DNA from: Hyphomicrobium sp. D-2
GTDB taxonomy: Bacteria > Pseudomonadota > Alphaproteobacteria > Rhizobiales > Hyphomicrobiaceae
Direction of reading: 5' to 3'
Length of the DNA: 64,000 nucleotides
Assembly (NCBI RefSeq): GCF_029872155.1
Contig: NZ_JARXLA010000001.1
Span: 62,001-126,000, forward strand
Below are positions 1-13,437 of this stretch, piece after piece (within the stretch, counting starts at the first letter, position 1; each line of letters starts with the position of its first letter). The notes under the pieces were generated by a model. That model searched no databases and was not told the origin of the DNA. It saw nothing but the letters and a program-made list of their open reading frames with translations. A program made the position numbers and the translations under genes.

Positions 1-3000
1 TCCAGTTATCGCTCAACGCATGTTCAAGACCAGCACCGATTGTCCATCCGGTATAGGTCTCACCTTTGTAGTTCACTGCCGGAGCTGGCGTGATGGCTAG
101 TCCGCTGCCGGTCCAGAAATTAAATTCGTGACTGTATTTTGCCGCGGAAAAACCGCCGGTGATGAACGGCAGGTATCTTCCGATTGCGTAACCAAGTCGC
201 CCCTTCACCGCACCACTCCAATCGAGCTCGGAATTGATACCGGCGAAATGACGTCGATCTATGCCGCTACTGGTAACTGTACCACTCCAGACAACGCTCT
301 CCTTGATCTCAGCGTTGCTCAGCGATAGCCCTGCGTCGATGCCGACAACCAAGCCGGAAGCGAACTGCCGGTCGGCGCCGGCGCGCAGACGACCCGAATA
401 GCCACGGGTGTCCTTGGCGACAAGGAAGCCGGTTGTAGGCAAACGTGCTACCGGAGCCATGATTTTGTCAGTCGCAGCTTCAAGGAACTGATAGCCGCCA
501 TCAAGTCCGATGCGCACACCGCTCCAGTCGTACGCTGTGCTATCCGTTGAACCTTGACCACCAAACGGCAGCAAGCCGGCCAGCACGCTGTTAGAGCCGT
601 TTCCGAACAAGTCGCCTTCGCCGAATTTCACCGACGCGCCGCCGAATATCCGCCGACCCGGGCCCATGTCCTGCGACATTGCCGGCATGTACGCGACGTC
701 GGTTAGGTTGGTCACGTTAGCAAACAGGTTCAAGCGCTCCGATGGCTGGAAGTTGGCGAACAGATCGTACGTCCGATAGGCATCCGTTTGCCAAGTGCCG
801 CCCTCAACAAGTGTGCCTTGCGACACATCGTTCATGCGTGCCCCGAGCGTCAGCTTGCGGTCGAACAGCCGAATGCCACCTGTCAGTGTTGTGTAGTCGT
901 CAGGCAACCGGCTTGGTTCACCCATGCCGCCGATGCCATCGCCAAAAGTGAGATTTGACTCATTCTTCGCGTAGGTGATGGCTGCAAACCCCCACCCGAT
1001 ATCGTAGCTGGCCTCCAGCTCATAACCTGTCAGCAAGCTGGTGCCAGGCGCGTTTTGAAACCAGCATACGGATGCACTCGCAAAACATTTTGCGATAATG
1101 AAATCCTCTACATCCTTGCGATACCACGCTGCCTTGAGGCGGAACGCGTCGTCATCCGTAAGGATGCCATTGCGCAGGATGTTGGCGCCGAACTCCCAGC
1201 CTGCGGCCGTTTCAGGCTGCAGGGCCGGGTTGGGCAGAAAGCTGGCGGTTGCTCCGGCGCCGTGTGAGCCGCCGAAAAACATTTCATTTACGGATGGTGG
1301 CCTGAAGCTCCCCTCGTAGGTTCCATAGAGCTGCAGCCAATCGACTGGCTTGACGGCCAACGTCGCCTTCGGGCTCACCGCATACGTGGTGTCGTCGACT
1401 GAGAAGTCACCTCGCCATGGTGCATTGAACGGAGACTCTGTAATTGTGTAGCGCGCTGGATTGTTCCAGTAGGAGTTCGATGGACGCGTCAGAGTATCCC
1501 TAGTGGAATTCGCGACGCTGTCATAAATCGTCCAGTAGACATCCGACACATTTCCTGTCGATCCCGCGCTCTTCATCGTGAACCGGTCGACACGCACACC
1601 GGGGATGAACTCGAAAATTCCAGACGTCAACGTTGCCTGCACGAACGCACCGCCGACGCTGGAAACGCCATCCGGGTTGGCATCCGCCGTCGTGTTGCCG
1701 GAGAAATCGTCGCGATAATATTCCAGGCCGTAGTGTAGCTTCAGTGCCGCTTGATCGAACTGGAATTTCGATGTGTTGCTGATATCAAATGACAGCCCCT
1801 CGTTGGTGATGATGCGGCCGCCATAGCTCAGGCTACCCGTCCACTGCGAGCTTGTCTCGTTGAAGGCGCCGTTGATGCGCAGGTCGACGAGATCGTTGCC
1901 AGGTGTGTAGGCATACTTCGCTGTCAGCGTCCTGTTGGTGACGGTTTGATCGTAGAAGTTGGCCCTGAAATCCGTCGAATAATAAATGCCACCGACATCA
2001 AGCCGATGCTCGCTGTTTGGTGAGACTGAGAACTTGAACAGACCCGATTTCACATCGCGCCAACTGTTGGTGACGAGCTTGTCGTCGCCGTCCTTGTATG
2101 CGTCGGCGCTTGTTAGATTTACAGCCCCAAACACGCTGCCGCCGGTGGGATTATCTCCAACACCAAATCGCGCACCGCCGGCTTTGGTAATCGACATGTC
2201 GTCGCTGGCATTGCCGCCGAATGTCGTCGTTACGATGCCACCAACCTTCTCGTGTGGATTGAGAACGTCATCGATGCCGAGCGTGCGATAGTTCACCGAT
2301 CCGGCCAGTGTTCCCGCACCGCCCGTTGTCGTTATAGCGCCCTTGGTAATGTCGACGCCTGCCAGCAGTGATGGTTCGATGTACGTGTATCCAGCCGGGC
2401 CGTGACCGGTGAAGCGATAGTTCTGCCGCACACCGTCAATCGTGCTGGTGACGCGACCCATGCCTTCAAGACCGCGGATGTTGACCGCCATACCGGGCTG
2501 GGCTGCATTCTCCCAGCTATATACACCCGCGACGGAACGCATCGCGTCATTGAGATCGTGTCCATAGGTTGCGATTGTGCTGGCATTGATCTGTGCAACG
2601 CTGGCTGGTGTCTCGTAGATCTGATCTGGCGCAGGCTGCCAGCCTGAACCCTGCAGCTGGGCTCCAGCTCCTCCGCTCACATCAATCGTATCAAGAGATA
2701 TTGCGCCATCGACGGTCGCGCCGGTTTCATTGCCCGCGCCCTCGCTGGATGAAATGATAACCGTGTCGTTGCCGCTAAACCTGAAGCTTGCACCCGTTCC
2801 GGAAAGCAGCTGCGACAGCGCCTGATCAGCGGACAACGTGCCGGAAACGCCTGGCGATGTACGGCCTTTGGCGGTCGCCGAACTGACTGAAACCTGCAAG
2901 CCCGACTGTTGGCCAAATTTCGTCAGCGCGCTGGCGAGAGGCTGGGCGGAAATTTGATACGTGCGAACCGCCGCCGTTTCCTGGGCCATAGCCGGTGCGA

Positions 3001-3085
3001 TGACCGATAGCGCTGCCGGCGCCGCTCCGGCAAGCAAAGCTGCAACCAGCCTATGGCTGATCGCCCCCTCAATACGCGTACGCAT
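1..3085 (-). CDS. TonB-dependent heme/hemoglobin-type receptor with STN signalling domain, fused to an Omp25/31-like barrel (partial)
   Basis: Outer-membrane receptor expected to import heme or heme-protein iron and to signal to the neighbouring anti-sigma factor. The frame is open from ATG 3085 to the window edge (1028 codons) with no stop. In order: a signal peptide ending near AMAQE; an STN domain (about residues 40-100, TYQISAQPLASALTKFGQ) as in transducing receptors; a plug with the heme-receptor motif IRGLEGMGRVTSTIDGVRQN; and a 22-strand-type barrel closing at ASVKF (residue 821). Instead of a stop there is a Gly/Ser-rich linker, then from residue 853 (DWSGVRIGLDGGY) a second barrel with Omp25/31 hallmarks such as WSGAVKGRLGYAIGRYLPF and GWTIGAGLEHALSDNW. 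I translated the junction codon by codon and it is in frame. The C-terminus lies outside the window. Family is sure; the ligand is inferred. Confidence 0.88.
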   Translation of the reverse strand, partial: MRTRIEGAISHRLVAALLAGAAPAALSVIAPAMAQETAAVRTYQISAQPLASALTKFGQQSGLQVSVSSATAKGRTSPGVSGTLSADQALSQLLSGTGASFRFSGNDTVIISSSEGAGNETGATVDGAISLDTIDVSGGAGAQLQGSGWQPAPDQIYETPASVAQINASTIATYGHDLNDAMRSVAGVYSWENAAQPGMAVNIRGLEGMGRVTSTIDGVRQNYRFTGHGPAGYTYIEPSLLAGVDITKGAITTTGGAGTLAGSVNYRTLGIDDVLNPHEKVGGIVTTTFGGNASDDMSITKAGGARFGVGDNPTGGSVFGAVNLTSADAYKDGDDKLVTNSWRDVKSGLFKFSVSPNSEHRLDVGGIYYSTDFRANFYDQTVTNRTLTAKYAYTPGNDLVDLRINGAFNETSSQWTGSLSYGGRIITNEGLSFDISNTSKFQFDQAALKLHYGLEYYRDDFSGNTTADANPDGVSSVGGAFVQATLTSGIFEFIPGVRVDRFTMKSAGSTGNVSDVYWTIYDSVANSTRDTLTRPSNSYWNNPARYTITESPFNAPWRGDFSVDDTTYAVSPKATLAVKPVDWLQLYGTYEGSFRPPSVNEMFFGGSHGAGATASFLPNPALQPETAAGWEFGANILRNGILTDDDAFRLKAAWYRKDVEDFIIAKCFASASVCWFQNAPGTSLLTGYELEASYDIGWGFAAITYAKNESNLTFGDGIGGMGEPSRLPDDYTTLTGGIRLFDRKLTLGARMNDVSQGTLVEGGTWQTDAYRTYDLFANFQPSERLNLFANVTNLTDVAYMPAMSQDMGPGRRIFGGASVKFGEGDLFGNGSNSVLAGLLPFGGQGSTDSTAYDWSGVRIGLDGGYQFLEAATDKIMAPVARLPTTGFLVAKDTRGYSGRLRAGADRQFASGLVVGIDAGLSLSNAEIKESVVWSGTVTSSGIDRRHFAGINSELDWSGAVKGRLGYAIGRYLPFITGGFSAAKYSHEFNFWTGSGLAITPAPAVNYKGETYTGWTIGAGLEHALSDNW

Positions 3086-3328
3086 ACACAAACACCCTCA
3101 AACATACTTTTCATCGGGCAGGCGCAGCTGATGTCCTGTCCCCTATGCAAAGAACGAACGGGCTCGGGGCGTTTTCAAAAATTTATGGCAACCGTAGGGA
3201 ACTTTTTTCGCAAGCGCGGGCGATGGGCGCGACAGCAAACCTGCCCGCTGCCATGCGCAGCGTACGCATGGATGGCGGCTAAAATGGCTTGAAGAATTTT
3301 AGAGTAGCGCGGGTGATGGCGTGATCAA

Positions 3329-4402
3329 TCAGCCGCCGTAAACAACAACCAGCCACGGGCTGATCTGCTGGACCGAAGCCCCATTCGCTTCCGCTACGGC
3401 CCGCAATGCGGCGATTGGGTCGTTGAGCCTGTAAACACCGCTGACGCGCTGCTGTCCAAGCGACGCGCTCAGGATTACAATGCGGCCGGAATAGTAGCGG
3501 CGCAGTTCATCAACGACGCTGTCGACCTCTTCATCGATAGCAACCAGCTTGCCATCGCGCCATGCGCCGGCATCTGCGCCGGTACCGCGCTCGATGGCGC
3601 CATTGGCAATGTCCACGCGGGCCCAATCGCCCGGCCCCAGAGGGCCGTCGGACGCTGAAGCACCGACTTGTCCAACGGCGACACTGCCATGATCGACCGC
3701 AATTGTCGCGCCGTCCGATAACACGCGCACATCGAATGCAGTGCCGAGAACTCTCGTCTCGACGCCATTGCCTATCACAGCGAACGGCCGATGCTGGTTG
3801 GGCGCAACCTCAAAAAATGCCTGGCCCGATAAAAGACTGACACGCCGTGCTTCGGCGCTCAGGTCCACCGTGATAGCGCTCGATGCACCGAGATATACTT
3901 CGCTGCCGTCGGCCAGTTCTATACGCCGTACTTCGCCCGTGCCGGTTGCGTAGTCCGCCTCAAGCCAGGTCGAAAACGTCGGCAGGTAAGCGATGGCGAT
4001 GCAAGCCGCCGCCAACGCCGCTGCAACGGATGCCTTGCCGAAATGTCGACCGGTGCCGCCAGCGGATCTACGCAATGCTAGTCGCTGTCGCGCCACGCCT
4101 CTGTTGTTTGCGGATGTTGCGGCAGTGTGCAGGCTCCGTCCACCTGTCACATCGCGACGATGATCGCTCGACGCCGTGGCCTTGCCCGTCGCGCGATGCT
4201 GCGTCGCCTCGGGCAAATTCCCGAGCAGGCTCCAGGTATGCTCGGCTTCTTGCCACGCGCGCTGATGCGCATCGCTGATGGCCAGCCAGGCCTCAAAGCG
4301 GGACCGCAGTTGACGATCATCGGGATCGTCGCGCAGCGCGATAAGCCAGTGCAGCGCCTCGCGAGACAGATCATCGTTTTTCTCGGTCGGCGAAATTGTC
4401 AT
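3329..4402 (-). CDS. FecR-family anti-sigma factor / signal transducer
   Basis: Inner-membrane sensor that holds the ECF sigma factor and receives the receptor's STN signal in the periplasm. The 357-residue protein has a DUF4880 cytoplasmic domain (about residues 14-60, with the FEAWL and HQRAWQEAE signatures), one membrane segment (about 125-142), a periplasmic FecR domain (about 150-245, including IELADGSEVYLG and LSGQAFFEV) and a C-terminal STN-like segment (about 290-357). The segment between DUF4880 and the membrane helix is longer than usual and basic. It lies between the sigma-factor gene and the receptor gene on the same strand, the standard fecI-fecR-receptor order, so all three probably act as one cell-surface signalling circuit for heme or iron. 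Confidence 0.92.
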   Translation of the reverse strand: MTISPTEKNDDLSREALHWLIALRDDPDDRQLRSRFEAWLAISDAHQRAWQEAEHTWSLLGNLPEATQHRATGKATASSDHRRDVTGGRSLHTAATSANNRGVARQRLALRRSAGGTGRHFGKASVAAALAAACIAIAYLPTFSTWLEADYATGTGEVRRIELADGSEVYLGASSAITVDLSAEARRVSLLSGQAFFEVAPNQHRPFAVIGNGVETRVLGTAFDVRVLSDGATIAVDHGSVAVGQVGASASDGPLGPGDWARVDIANGAIERGTGADAGAWRDGKLVAIDEEVDSVVDELRRYYSGRIVILSASLGQQRVSGVYRLNDPIAALRAVAEANGASVQQISPWLVVVYGG

Positions 4403-4510: not shown

Positions 4511-5023
4511 TCAGCGCGCTTTGGGCTGCGCCAGCCGCTGGCGGCAGTGGTCCAGCCCCTCATAGACGAGATTGTGCGCCAGCGCCGGCGAGATGCCGAG
4601 ATGATCGGCAATGTCCTTCAGTTTCCAGCCGTGGAAACGGTGCAATTCCAGCGCGATGCGCGTGCGCTCCGGTAGCTCCGCAACTGCCTGCATCAGCAAG
4701 CGAAGATCATCCCGCGAAGACAGCGCCTGTTCCTGGGTCGGGTTGTCCGCCGCTACCGTCGCCGATGCCTGCTCGCCGTCGAACAAACGTCGTTCGAACG
4801 AAAGCCTGCGCACCCAATCCAGAGCCAGGTTGCGCACAATCCGGCGCAGGTATCCGAGCGGCTCGTCAATCGTGCGATCGGCCGCCATGGAGCGCAGGCG
4901 AATAAACGCGTCCTGGACGATGTCTTCACCGCCCGCGCGATCGCCCACGATGGCCGTTGCGTAGTCGACCAGCTCGCCGCGGTGCAGAAGATATTGGTCG
5001 AAGCGATTTTCCGAGATGGCCAC
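4511..5023 (-). CDS. ECF sigma factor (FecI/HasI type)
   Basis: RNA polymerase sigma factor expected to transcribe the adjacent receptor gene once FecR is activated. Sigma region 2 runs from RFDQYLLHRGELVDYA through GGEDIVQDAFIRL, and region 4 contains LPERTRIALELHRFHGWKLK and the helix-turn-helix DIADHLGISPALAHNLV. I chose GTG 5023, giving 170 residues, because the conserved family begins just after it. The open frame extends upstream to 5221, with an in-frame ATG at 5086, but that sequence does not look like an ECF factor. A 108-base gap separates it from fecR. Family assignment is firm; the exact start is not. Confidence 0.88.
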   Translation of the reverse strand: MAISENRFDQYLLHRGELVDYATAIVGDRAGGEDIVQDAFIRLRSMAADRTIDEPLGYLRRIVRNLALDWVRRLSFERRLFDGEQASATVAADNPTQEQALSSRDDLRLLMQAVAELPERTRIALELHRFHGWKLKDIADHLGISPALAHNLVYEGLDHCRQRLAQPKAR

Positions 5024-5420
5024 AGATGCCCCGCTGACTACGCGATACGAAACAGCCCCCAGAACCCATTGAGTTGGACGCGGCATGGCCTGCGGTAAGA
5101 CAGTTGGAAGGCCACGCAGAGCGCCACTATCCTCCCGATAAACCAGCACTTTTATGCTGGCAACAGCGCGATGAACCATCGCTTGCCGTCCGTGCTGGTG
5201 GGCTAGAATATAACTATACAAAAAAAGTCATTTTTATCGATTGCGGTCAATGCATTGCCGGTTGGGAACGAGTGGGGTGGTGCCCGCCTCCGGCATCTCA
5301 AGCTGTCCAGCGAAACGTACTTTAGGTGCGGCGTGTCGCATTTCGCACACACCCCTTCAGGCGCGGACGTGGCCAGTGTATGGTCAGAGCAGCGCCGTGG
5401 TTGATGGAAGAGTTGGCGTT
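5024..5420. other. Intergenic region upstream of the ECF sigma factor
   Basis: This stretch of about 400 bases lies between the end of ilvA and the sigma-factor start. It must contain the sigma-factor promoter, possibly in the AT-rich part around 5205-5240. I see no convincing gene. If the sigma factor starts at an upstream codon, part of this stretch is coding. I cannot point to a Fur or Irr box with confidence. Confidence 0.4.
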
Positions 5421-11025: not shown

Positions 11026-13437
11026 TTACGTTGCCGGAGTGAGGGCAGGGCTCTCGTAGTCTGCGCGGCCGCGATGCTTCACCGCGTCAGCGGGTGGTGG
11101 TGGCAACGGGCCATCCATCATGAAGCGGTTGAGCACGTTGCCGACCAGCGTCGAGACATTGTTCTTGCCGTTGTTCCAGGGCAGCGAGCCGCAGAACGCG
11201 ATCGACGAGAACGCGAAGCACGCGCCGCCGTTCGGTGTTTCGTGGAAGGCGATGTCGCCGCGCACGCGTGGATGCGTGGTGCCGTCGAGACCCTGCTGGT
11301 TGAAGCCGAAGTCTTCCATGACGAGGAGGTAGGCTTCGGTGTGCCGGCCAGCGGACGTGGCAACCGCGAGCGTGTGCGGCGGTGAACCCAGCGTAACGTC
11401 GACGATGTCGAGTTCGAGGCCGGCGCAACCGCCGCCGACGAGGCCGAAGTTGCCGATCGGTTCGTCATAGCTAATGCCTTCGAACGCCCACGCAACGCGC
11501 GGGTCCATGCTGTCCGGTGTGCGGCTGTAGTAGGTCGAAACGTCGAAGCCTTCGTTCGTCATGCCGACGCCGGCGACCGAGTACAGCGAGCGACCACGGA
11601 AGCGCCACATGCCGCCCAGTTCGCCGGTGCCCTGGTGGTAGTATTCGCCGGGTTCGGCGCGCCAGGTGCGGATGCCGGATCTGCAGCGCCGCATCTCCGT
11701 GACGACGCCGCGGCCGATGCCTTCGTATGCCGGATGGAACGAGTGCACCCAGTACCACGCGTCGGCGCCCATATACATCAGGCGGCCACCGCGCTGCGTA
11801 TAGTTATGCAGTGCGTCGAGCTGTGTGCCTGAGTTGTGTTCTGGATGCGAACCGGTGATGACGACGTTGTAGTTCTCCAGACGCGCGACGCCATCGTAGG
11901 TTACATCTTCGTCGGTGATGACGTCGTATTCATAGCCCATCGTCTCCAGCCAGTAGATGAGGTGGAGATCGGCGGGATACTGCCACGGCGCCTGCGCAAG
12001 GAAGTGATCGTATTTTGGCCGGATGCTGAGGATAGGCCGCAGACGCGAAGACAGGCAGATGCCCGAGCCATCGGTGTGCGTGTCGTAGATCGATCCGCCG
12101 TACTCGCGGTGCTCGGCCAGGAACATGTTCTGGTGCTGCATGATCGGAACACGATATACAAACAGCTCCGCGCCGCCTGCGTTGCACGCGACGTGCTCGT
12201 TGGCATAGGCCATGTAGCTGATGGTTGGCACCATCACGGCGATCTTGGACTGCTCCTTGCCGATCTTTGGCACGACCCAGAACGGGATGTAATCTTCGTC
12301 GCCTTCGGCTGTGGTGACCTTCAGCGCATAGAAGCGGCTCTTGATGCCTTCGGCTGGAACGTCCCATTCAACATCGACCTGCCAGCGGGCGTTGTCGACG
12401 TCATCGTCGTGGAAGTGGATCGCGCCATATTCCTTCTTGGCGTACTTCCAGTCGAAGTTCTGGCCGGACCAGTTGTAACCGGTCAACGCGCGCGTCGGGC
12501 AGTTGACCAGCTTGGCATCAAAGCGATACGGGCCGTTGTCCTTGGCGACGATGGTGTCGATGCCGTCCCAGAAATCCCAGGCTGCAACGATCACTTCCGA
12601 GAGTGCGCCGGTCGGACCGGAGTTGCGTCGCTCCGTCAGTCCAGGCTGCGCGCCGGCCTTCATCTGTTCGATCTCGAACCGGTTTAGCGCGCGGTTGCAG
12701 ATCCGGGGGCTGTCGATCTTGCCGTTGTACTTGCCGGAAAACCAAACGCCTGACGGCAGCGCTGACTTCGCCAGCGGATCATCGTCGATGCGATCAACGT
12801 AAGCGCCAAGTGCAACCGGCGCCGGGGTGTGAATGATCTTGGTCTTGATGTTCGCCTTCACCGGCTCAATGACCGGATCGAGCGCATAGACAACCTGCGG
12901 CTCGTGATAGAGCACCACTTCGCCGGTTGCTGCGTCGTAGCTTGCGGCCACGAAGTGCCACGCGTGATCGCGGATCGGAACGTTGGTGGTAACTTTGTGC
13001 TCGTTAATGCGCAGCTCAAGGCAGCCCTGATCGTTGATGAACAGGCCGTAGCCTTTGCCGTAACCCTGACCGCTCATCCACTTGGTGACGAGGCCCTGCG
13101 CGCCGTGCTTCCAGTAGCGCGGATGCGTCTTCGGTGTTGTCGGCCAGATCCAGCACTGCAGCGTGAAGCTGTCGACGTGGAGCTGCGGCTTGTCTTCGAC
13201 GTAGCCGTAAGAGCCGCCGTGGATGATCTGCTTGCGGCCTTTGTATGTGCCGGTTGCCTTGGTTTCGATCGGGCGTTCGATGAAGCCGGGGCCGCGCGGG
13301 TTGGTGTCGCCATGGATCATCTGCACGACTTCGGCCTTGAATTCCGAAGGCCCGTCGCAGTTGACGTAGAACTTGATGGTTTCGCCCGGATGAACACCGA
13401 ATTTGTCAGCGTATCCGGTTAGCCTCATCGCACACAT
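11026..13437 (-). CDS. dmfA2: N,N-dimethylformamidase, large subunit (DmfA2)
   Basis: Catalytic subunit of the iron amidohydrolase that splits N,N-dimethylformamide into dimethylamine and formate. About 803 residues, near the size of the Paracoccus enzyme. The N-terminus (MRLTGYADKFGVHPGETIKF) leads into a LamG/concanavalin-like domain (DSFTLQCWIWPTTP) and then the catalytic domain. The known site is mononuclear iron bound by two Tyr and one Glu. By spacing, the candidates here are the second Tyr of SYMAYANEH, the Tyr of GGSIYDTHTDGSG and the Glu of GSHPEHNSG. ATG 13437 has GGAGAAG at good spacing. It follows dmfA1, matching the usual dmfA1-dmfA2 order. Assignment is strong; substrate range (DMF or other small amides) is inferred. 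Confidence 0.9.
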   Translation of the reverse strand: MCAMRLTGYADKFGVHPGETIKFYVNCDGPSEFKAEVVQMIHGDTNPRGPGFIERPIETKATGTYKGRKQIIHGGSYGYVEDKPQLHVDSFTLQCWIWPTTPKTHPRYWKHGAQGLVTKWMSGQGYGKGYGLFINDQGCLELRINEHKVTTNVPIRDHAWHFVAASYDAATGEVVLYHEPQVVYALDPVIEPVKANIKTKIIHTPAPVALGAYVDRIDDDPLAKSALPSGVWFSGKYNGKIDSPRICNRALNRFEIEQMKAGAQPGLTERRNSGPTGALSEVIVAAWDFWDGIDTIVAKDNGPYRFDAKLVNCPTRALTGYNWSGQNFDWKYAKKEYGAIHFHDDDVDNARWQVDVEWDVPAEGIKSRFYALKVTTAEGDEDYIPFWVVPKIGKEQSKIAVMVPTISYMAYANEHVACNAGGAELFVYRVPIMQHQNMFLAEHREYGGSIYDTHTDGSGICLSSRLRPILSIRPKYDHFLAQAPWQYPADLHLIYWLETMGYEYDVITDEDVTYDGVARLENYNVVITGSHPEHNSGTQLDALHNYTQRGGRLMYMGADAWYWVHSFHPAYEGIGRGVVTEMRRCRSGIRTWRAEPGEYYHQGTGELGGMWRFRGRSLYSVAGVGMTNEGFDVSTYYSRTPDSMDPRVAWAFEGISYDEPIGNFGLVGGGCAGLELDIVDVTLGSPPHTLAVATSAGRHTEAYLLVMEDFGFNQQGLDGTTHPRVRGDIAFHETPNGGACFAFSSIAFCGSLPWNNGKNNVSTLVGNVLNRFMMDGPLPPPPADAVKHRGRADYESPALTPAT

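Follow-up and report, generated by a model that had tools for sequence, protein, structure and literature searches.

A HasR-like TonB-dependent receptor with a second, small outer-membrane barrel in the same predicted chain

The stretch of DNA analysed here, called the window throughout, comprises 64 000 nucleotides of the genome of Hyphomicrobium sp. D-2 (positions 62001-126000 of contig C1 in a 3.79-Mb genome, G000). At its left edge it contains a gene whose product combines two barrel domains of the outer-membrane type in a single polypeptide. Read on the minus strand, this gene (1..3085, cut by the window edge) encodes in order a signal peptide, an STN signalling domain, a plug, a TonB receptor barrel, a short linker and a second, smaller barrel, as assigned from the frame and the adjoining sequence. 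The domain order, the intact frame, the FecI–FecR order beside it and purifying selection in relatives can all be read directly from sequence. We favour the interpretation, with a probability of about 55%, that the protein is a TonB-dependent heme receptor which resembles HasR and belongs to the transducer type, and in which a second complete small barrel serves as a C-terminal accessory module of the same chain.

Architecture of the fused gene

The frame is open on the minus strand from a TTG codon at 3091 to the window edge, with zero stops, and its own stop lies 157 bases beyond that edge. The complete protein is 1082 amino acids in length (L009:9843-13091) and terminates in the sequence HDFNVGIAYRF. 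A sequence-only reading of this DNA had proposed one chain in which a heme-type TonB receptor is followed by a small barrel, with the frame uninterrupted across the junction. Pfam, TIGR01785 and the alignment to HasR agree on the former, while the sequence beyond the edge extends the latter to a C-terminus and a stop. Our residue numbering starts at the TTG at 3091, so that numbers counted from the ATG at 3085 are two lower; the receptor end at 821 and second barrel from 853 of that reading are the same positions as 823 and 855 here.

All elements of the gene are on the minus strand. The signal peptide, recognized by eye, spans approximately residues 3-36 (2984..3085), with a putative cleavage site at AMA/QE. 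The STN domain occupies residues 65-115 (2747..2899; Pfam PF07660, 40.5 bits against a cut-off of 28.4) and the plug residues 159-264 (2300..2617; PF07715, over the cut-off). The receptor barrel, of a class that has 22 strands, covers residues 354-823 (623..2032), and is matched over the cut-off by PF00593 at 354-796 and also by TIGR01785. The latter matches residues 133-823 over its entire profile (1-677 of 677) with 368.7 bits against a cut-off of 316.85. STN, plug and barrel align to HasR in three stretches, and the final residue of HasR, 865, falls on residue 823. Thus the receptor has reached its full length by the start of the linker, and the barrel that follows the linker is whole as well. 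The final receptor strand is placed by the model at residues 814-824 (620..652), which is the end point of unfused receptors. It is followed by a linker of 26 residues (826-851; 539..616), modelled with low confidence, and by the second barrel, of which residues 852-1030 lie in the window (1..538) and the last 52 outside it. The second barrel matches PF13505 (OMP_b-brl) at 851-1082 with 52.0 bits against a cut-off of 28.7, covering positions 16-175 of the 175 in the profile. It had been described as Omp25/31-type; this stands at the level of the broader family PF13505, and no Omp25/31-Hbp model came up in library scans of the barrel. The G+C content is 57.2% for the fused gene and 55.6% for the linker and barrel, compared with 60.5% for the window, and no phage record matched 80% or more of the fused protein.

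The structural model of the window part, although poor overall, ends the receptor in a strand at 814-824, assigns 828-852 to a linker of low confidence and shows six strands of the second barrel up to the window edge. Its top Foldseek match is HasR, which is also the best sequence match of the fused protein in the PDB (E = 3.8e-58). A complete relative, L111 of Ancylobacter rudongensis, is modelled better, with a mean predicted local distance difference test score (pLDDT) of 73.5. Here the receptor ends at residue 829, a low-confidence linker occupies 832-845, and eight long strands lie within 850-1114, with two short ones in the last loop. In VIA-align 2, residues 137-828 of L111 superimpose on residues 113-865 of HasR, i.e. 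to the C-terminus of HasR (Z = 37.9, root-mean-square deviation 2.7, 649 residues aligned). The structure-search matches are filled by the receptor, so that the fold of the second barrel is barely compared with solved structures; when only this barrel was searched against PDB sequences, a single match appeared, attributable to chance (E = 0.076).

Recurrence of the fusion

The fusion is not confined to one locus. The Hyphomicrobium genome has 33 matches to the plug and 17 to STN, 16 of which exceed the STN cut-off, and eight of its frames combine STN, plug and C-terminal OMP_b-brl (C1:61846, C1:9522, C2:629171, C2:785313, C3:254443, C3:369937, C8:591439 and C8:728184). A ninth candidate at C3:202741 (L203) was rejected as a cross-match: its receptor barrel reaches residue 848 of 852, and PF13505 is absent at E = 0.01. 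Another STN/plug receptor of this genome, at G000:C4:353777-354533, is interrupted by a stop and looks broken. When all candidates in the genus were scored at E = 1e-30, fusions numbered eight in this genome, one each in G003 and G006, and zero in five others.

For a wider view 297 genomes were drawn evenly from the order. The junction-model scan scored up to seven candidates per genome and the whole-length scan two, and the tallies are therefore lower bounds. Among the matches listed, those to the junction model that start at positions 1-13 come from the Hyphomicrobium genome and G210 only. At least 49 of the 297 genomes have strong matches to the whole-length model, and among the candidates scored its end is reached in the same two genomes only. 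A further set of 79 named contig loci, taken from the best 80 of 554 relatives, contains 23 in which the junction is spanned. They come from Hyphomicrobium, Pseudochrobactrum, Ochrobactrum/Brucella, Hoeflea, Kaistia, Azorhizobium, Rhodoplanes, Xanthobacteraceae, Afipia, Brevundimonas, Ancylobacter, Croceibacterium, Mesorhizobium, Novosphingobium, one unassigned member of the Hyphomicrobiales and one contig labelled Bacillus subtilis. The fused gene on the last (L099, strain SK6B4) is nearly identical to that of Pseudochrobactrum, indicating a wrong label or a contaminated assembly. One locus (L112) is cut by a contig end. Intact fused copies are present on plasmids of Ancylobacter, Shinella, Pseudochrobactrum and Novosphingobium, and the two annotated ones among them carry only the label 'TonB-dependent receptor'.

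In total we have collected 31 intact fusions, which differ in sequence and share the same domain order. The sequence-only reading would have been refuted by homologues that always keep the two barrels as separate genes; this is not seen, the fused form being present in relatives.

A small barrel is found behind at least two kinds of receptor, because a frame in another family of the order (L204 in genome G058; 1071 residues) also has a plug, a TonB barrel and a C-terminal OMP_b-brl domain at 830-1064. Its match to the junction model is a partial one. Its best match is the ZnuD exception model, far under the cut-off (220.4 against 950 bits), and the profiles for plug and receptor that were built from the fusions do not recognize it. 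This protein lacks STN, and its 8 kb contain no FecI- or FecR-like frame. A restriction of the fusion to signalling receptors is accordingly not upheld.

The end of the receptor and the linker

We compared the 31 intact fusions with 34 complete unfused STN receptors, leaving out eight frames with an incomplete receptor barrel and L002, a truncated copy of L025. In the unfused receptors the frame stops 0-2 residues past the final strand of the receptor. The fused proteins run on for 193-318 residues past the same strand, through linkers of 13-26 residues. The last position of the receptor is F or Y in 34/34 unfused proteins; in the fused ones it is F in 17/31 and L or I in 14/31, the window protein retaining F823. 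The true C-terminal residue is F in every one of the 31 fused proteins. The occurrence of L or I at the receptor end (14/31 fused versus 0/34 unfused) gives p = 4.3e-6 in a Fisher test without L002, and a kinship-corrected test on 8 independent tree pairs gives a median p of 0.0625. The usual account of barrel assembly places the signal in the last, C-terminal strand, and the change at the receptor end is at most suggestive of a relaxed internal assembly signal. As fused and unfused receptors differ at just this position, the role of a free C-terminal strand is testable with natural relatives.

The linkers bear on whether the chain remains in one piece. Cleavage of a precursor in the linker after export would generate a normal receptor and a separate small porin, and the shortness of the linkers and their low model confidence are compatible with this. 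Yet they share no common motif discernible by eye, and the combination of a terminal F in all second barrels with L or I at 14 receptor ends suits one chain better. We regard cleavage as improbable.

Many of the second barrels share a further feature. Two cysteines, in most cases with an NGR motif after them, lie 41-52 residues from the C-terminus in 19 of the 31 fusions (L044, L046, L055, L056, L060, L062, L096-L101, L103, L104, L108, L111, L114, L116 and L174) but are absent from the window protein. In the model of L111 this cysteine pair falls in the long last loop. A scan of the 3′ flanks of the unfused receptors (35 rows, 1500 bases each, except for L011, L025, L027, L030 and L188 with only 171-648 bases and L002 with no flank) revealed no separate barrel gene or barrel remnant.

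Selection and evolutionary history

In eight pairs of relatives the ratio of non-synonymous to synonymous substitution rates (dN/dS) lies between 0.015 and 0.119 for the receptor, and between 0.061 and 0.217 for the second barrel. The value for the barrel is the higher in 8/8 pairs, which share members and are not independent. The linker too has dN < dS in all eight pairs, albeit over only 17-24 codons. Since dN is below dS, the second barrel is evidently translated and maintained in those relatives, and by this measure linker and barrel are under purifying selection.

This also bears on a more trivial origin, that the fusion is an artefact of sequencing or assembly, or a neutral read-through. 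Frame changes split four of the 23 junction-spanning loci (L105, L110, L113 and L115), including the sole copy from Brevundimonas (Caulobacterales); these are either decaying genes or sequencing errors, and they indicate that this type of locus can decay. But 31 intact fusions share one anatomy, linker and barrel show dN < dS in each of the eight pairs, and the same fusion is present on complete plasmids. Recurrence of the junction together with selection refutes the artefact, to which we attach almost no weight.

The history of the fusion is more intricate. A tree of 64 receptors (30 fused and 34 unfused, two rows having been dropped beforehand) is a quick one with long branches, and the long branches of L043 and L188 join each other. 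The two kinds of receptor are intermixed in this tree, with 11 changes of state, at least eight of which are forced by well-supported branches, and a single fused clade is rejected (p = 3.5e-12). The tree of the barrels contains 36 fused and 55 stand-alone examples, after removal of barrels covering less than 75% of the profile, six rows, near-copies over 75% and stand-alone barrels beyond 55. Thirty of the fused barrels form one clade (support 98), with L047 and L061 on long branches, and the barrel of the window protein groups with three others of its own genome and four stand-alone ones (support 96). In this tree one clade of all fused barrels is not rejected (p = 0.327). Because the receptor tree rejects a single fused clade whereas the barrel tree does not, a single capture with later loss or exchange and several separate captures are equally tenable. 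The receptor clade appears from these trees to have gained or lost the barrel repeatedly, gain being indistinguishable from loss. The nearest stand-alone relatives of the second barrel are barrels of the Hyphomicrobiales, many of them 220-400 amino acids in length.

One pair of paralogues points to exchange between loci. L042:5169-8447 and L043:5437-8730 (both minus strands) are 40% identical in the receptor and 69% in the barrel. Their identity reaches 97% only over about the last 60 residues, with 93-96% identity of the DNA near the 3′ end, and their 1500-base 3′ flanks are unrelated. Transfer of the whole barrel is rejected, since the high identity is confined to the 3′ end; the pattern is a sign of recent exchange at that end of the barrel.

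Genetic context

Directly upstream of the fused gene lies a gene for a FecR-like anti-sigma factor (3329..4402, minus strand; PF04773, E = 1.2e-19; NF007296 below its cut-off), preceded by one for a FecI-like extracytoplasmic function (ECF) sigma factor (4511..5221, minus strand; Sigma70_r2/r4_2, with TIGR02937 over its cut-off). Passages of a published account report the same order of sigma factor, anti-sigma factor and receptor for hasI-hasS-hasR (PMC9249621). A threonine dehydratase gene lies farther upstream of this FecI–FecR–receptor unit, and genes for a histidine kinase and a response regulator lie downstream of the fused gene and convergent with it.

The arrangement is general: FecI and FecR are upstream on the same strand in 30/31 intact fusions, and in the remaining one (L109) FecR is upstream and the contig then begins. 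FecI–FecR pairs also stand beside several unfused STN receptors of the same loci, and hence the link is to the receptor clade rather than to the barrel. In one 20-kb region of the Hyphomicrobium genome (L044, G000:C8:718000-737990) there are four tandem FecI–FecR–receptor units, with one receptor fused and three not.

Is the fused family specific for heme?

HasR residues 189 (in the plug) and 603 (in the FRAP-NPNL loop) are presumably the heme-ligand histidines. In the window protein, by alignment to 5c58/3csl counted by eye, His230 (plug; 2402-2404) shares the column of residue 189, and His610 (1262-1264), in an FRPP...NPAL loop, is one column off residue 603, beside a gap. The window protein is the only one of the 31 fused receptors with both candidate histidines. 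The plug column is Tyr in 29/31, four of which have the loop histidine (L044, L055, L056 and L063), and L041 has the plug histidine without that of the loop. An unfused paralogue in the same genome, L025, has both. The barrel therefore does not track the histidine pair, and specificity for heme across the whole fused family is not supported. Other heme ligand pairs exist, such as His-Tyr in PhuR, so that receptors without the histidine pair may still use heme. With the window protein the sole fused receptor to have the pair, heme specificity is nonetheless doubtful on these alignments. All 14 members of set A1 match TIGR01785, counting matches irrespective of the cut-off.

These data bear on a more specific role for the second barrel, in which it would capture heme, in the manner of Omp31 or the Hbp proteins of Bartonella, and hand it to the receptor to which it is fused. 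Omp31 is reported, in passages of PMC9728373, to bind hemin and to be ∼32% identical to HbpA, and both candidate histidines are retained in the window receptor, as is the match to TIGR01785 throughout set A1. Set against this, 30 of the 31 fused receptors lack the histidine pair, and the barrel is placed in PF13505, which is broader than Omp25/31 proper. We consider heme capture by the barrel unlikely.

The role of the second barrel

In the reading that we favour, that of a transducing heme receptor with a tethered module, the receptor half would import heme and would signal through FecR to FecI, raising its own expression. Both barrels would be inserted from one chain by the barrel assembly machinery (BAM); the signal peptide, the end residues and the model suggest that both reside in the outer membrane. 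Beside the receptor, the small barrel would act as a tethered accessory surface module, the loops of which may help to capture a carrier, or may shape or shield the surface of the receptor. This is the most likely role on present sequence comparisons. It would be an optional add-on of receptors in the clade, and since the fusion occurs on the ZnuD-like L204 and on receptors without the histidine pair, the small barrel is probably specific neither to heme nor to signalling. A surface function for the loops is suggested by the quicker change of the barrel, by the cysteine pair and by the uneven distribution of the fusion.

A purely structural role is possible. The barrel could be an anchor, or a module contacting its neighbours, which fixes the position or the partners of the receptor and leaves the substrate untouched. 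It occurs on receptors with differing ligand signatures, including the ZnuD-like one, and its presence varies over the receptor tree, both of which speak for an anchor. Yet its divergence outpaces that of the receptor in the eight pairs of relatives, and the cysteine pair of 19/31 fusions, which L111 is modelled to have in its long final loop, suggests that the surface loops have work to do. We hold an anchor to be a minority explanation. The sequence-only reading had named a two-pore protein, a module that captures heme and a chain cut after export as candidates.

A number of observations weigh against the heme receptor with its accessory module. A scan of six neighbouring genes revealed none for heme transport, and the hemophore HasA (PF06438) is without a match at E ≤ 1 in the genome. 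The insertion, signalling, ligand and contact between barrel and receptor are all predictions. Within this genome the fusions are found in 8/17 STN receptors versus 0/16 other plug frames (Fisher p = 0.0027), so that some tie of the fusion to signalling receptors is possible. The faster evolution of the barrel could instead result from weaker constraint. The model of the window part is weak, with a mean pLDDT of 58.8, and is without the last 52 residues. Lastly, no intact close orthologue of the window gene was found that would permit a selection test of its own. The syntenic locus in the sister genome G001, with flanks 88-90% identical, retains only 333 + 175 bases of the fused gene (L054:9651-10144 against L009:12652-12984 and 11568-11742), and gives no DNA match to FecR or to most of the FecI frame.

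A more speculative extension is that TonB receptors, mainly those that signal, use the small barrel as a surface cassette that can be exchanged. The C-terminal assembly signal would shift to the end of the second barrel, rendering the terminal aromatic of the receptor dispensable, and fused receptors would expand fast (there are eight here), varying the surface that is met by carriers, phages and bacteriocins. We offer this tentatively. Apart from this, the repeated gain or loss of a whole barrel on iron receptors illustrates how the cell surface at sites of uptake can be changed in modular fashion.

Comparison with known systems

The closest known structure, HasR of Serratia marcescens (3csl, 5c58), resembles the window protein in its STN, plug and barrel, in the column of the plug histidine and in the order of sigma factor, anti-sigma factor and receptor. 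HasR itself, however, stops at the last receptor strand and has no second barrel. In the Has system, hasR is followed by hasA, hasD, hasE and hasB, whereas the Hyphomicrobium genome yielded no HasA in the search given above. On sequence criteria, then, the window protein is a HasR-like receptor and not a Has system. Transducers of the FecA/FpvA type are alike in having STN and upstream FecI–FecR, but are without a second barrel, and the FecA equivalog model scores the window protein far below its cut-off (52.8 against 1100 bits). The small barrels of the Omp25/Omp31-Hbp group are alike in being PF13505 barrels; that of the window protein differs in being fused behind a receptor, without a signal peptide of its own.

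Other combinations of barrels are found in these genomes. In one design a single frame encodes an N-terminal OMP_b-brl and, behind it, an OprB carbohydrate porin, both over their cut-offs, at L207:291-2282 (G000:C2; 663 amino acids) and L090:214-2289 (G133; 691 amino acids); a barrel match of this kind is also seen in frames of 674-722 amino acids from several family f35 genomes. Two further frames of the Hyphomicrobium genome begin with OMP_b-brl and continue for about 300 residues (L206:1470-3227, 585 amino acids, and L205:413-2116, 567 amino acids). In that part L206 matches Omptin just under the cut-off, and L205 has no clear match.

A class of outer-membrane proteins in which a single chain contains two or more barrels was reportedly described by Solan et al. 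(PNAS, 2021), a work known to us through papers that cite it. Passages of several accounts treat this class, with GfcD and YjbH as examples (PMC9603273, PMC8592465, PMC11494523). In GfcD barrels of 12 and 13 strands are joined by a periplasmic domain, while in the window protein a short linker lies between a plugged signalling receptor and a small barrel. Like members of the class, it has two complete barrel domains in one open chain. Among the titles and abstract openings listed from an open-access library, none was found to describe a TonB receptor that carries another barrel in fusion. The novelty is smaller than the sequence-only reading implied, since multi-barrel outer-membrane proteins are, so far as those accounts go, an already described class. 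The fusion is a variant within that class, and provides a natural case for studying the assembly and function of two barrels on a single polypeptide.

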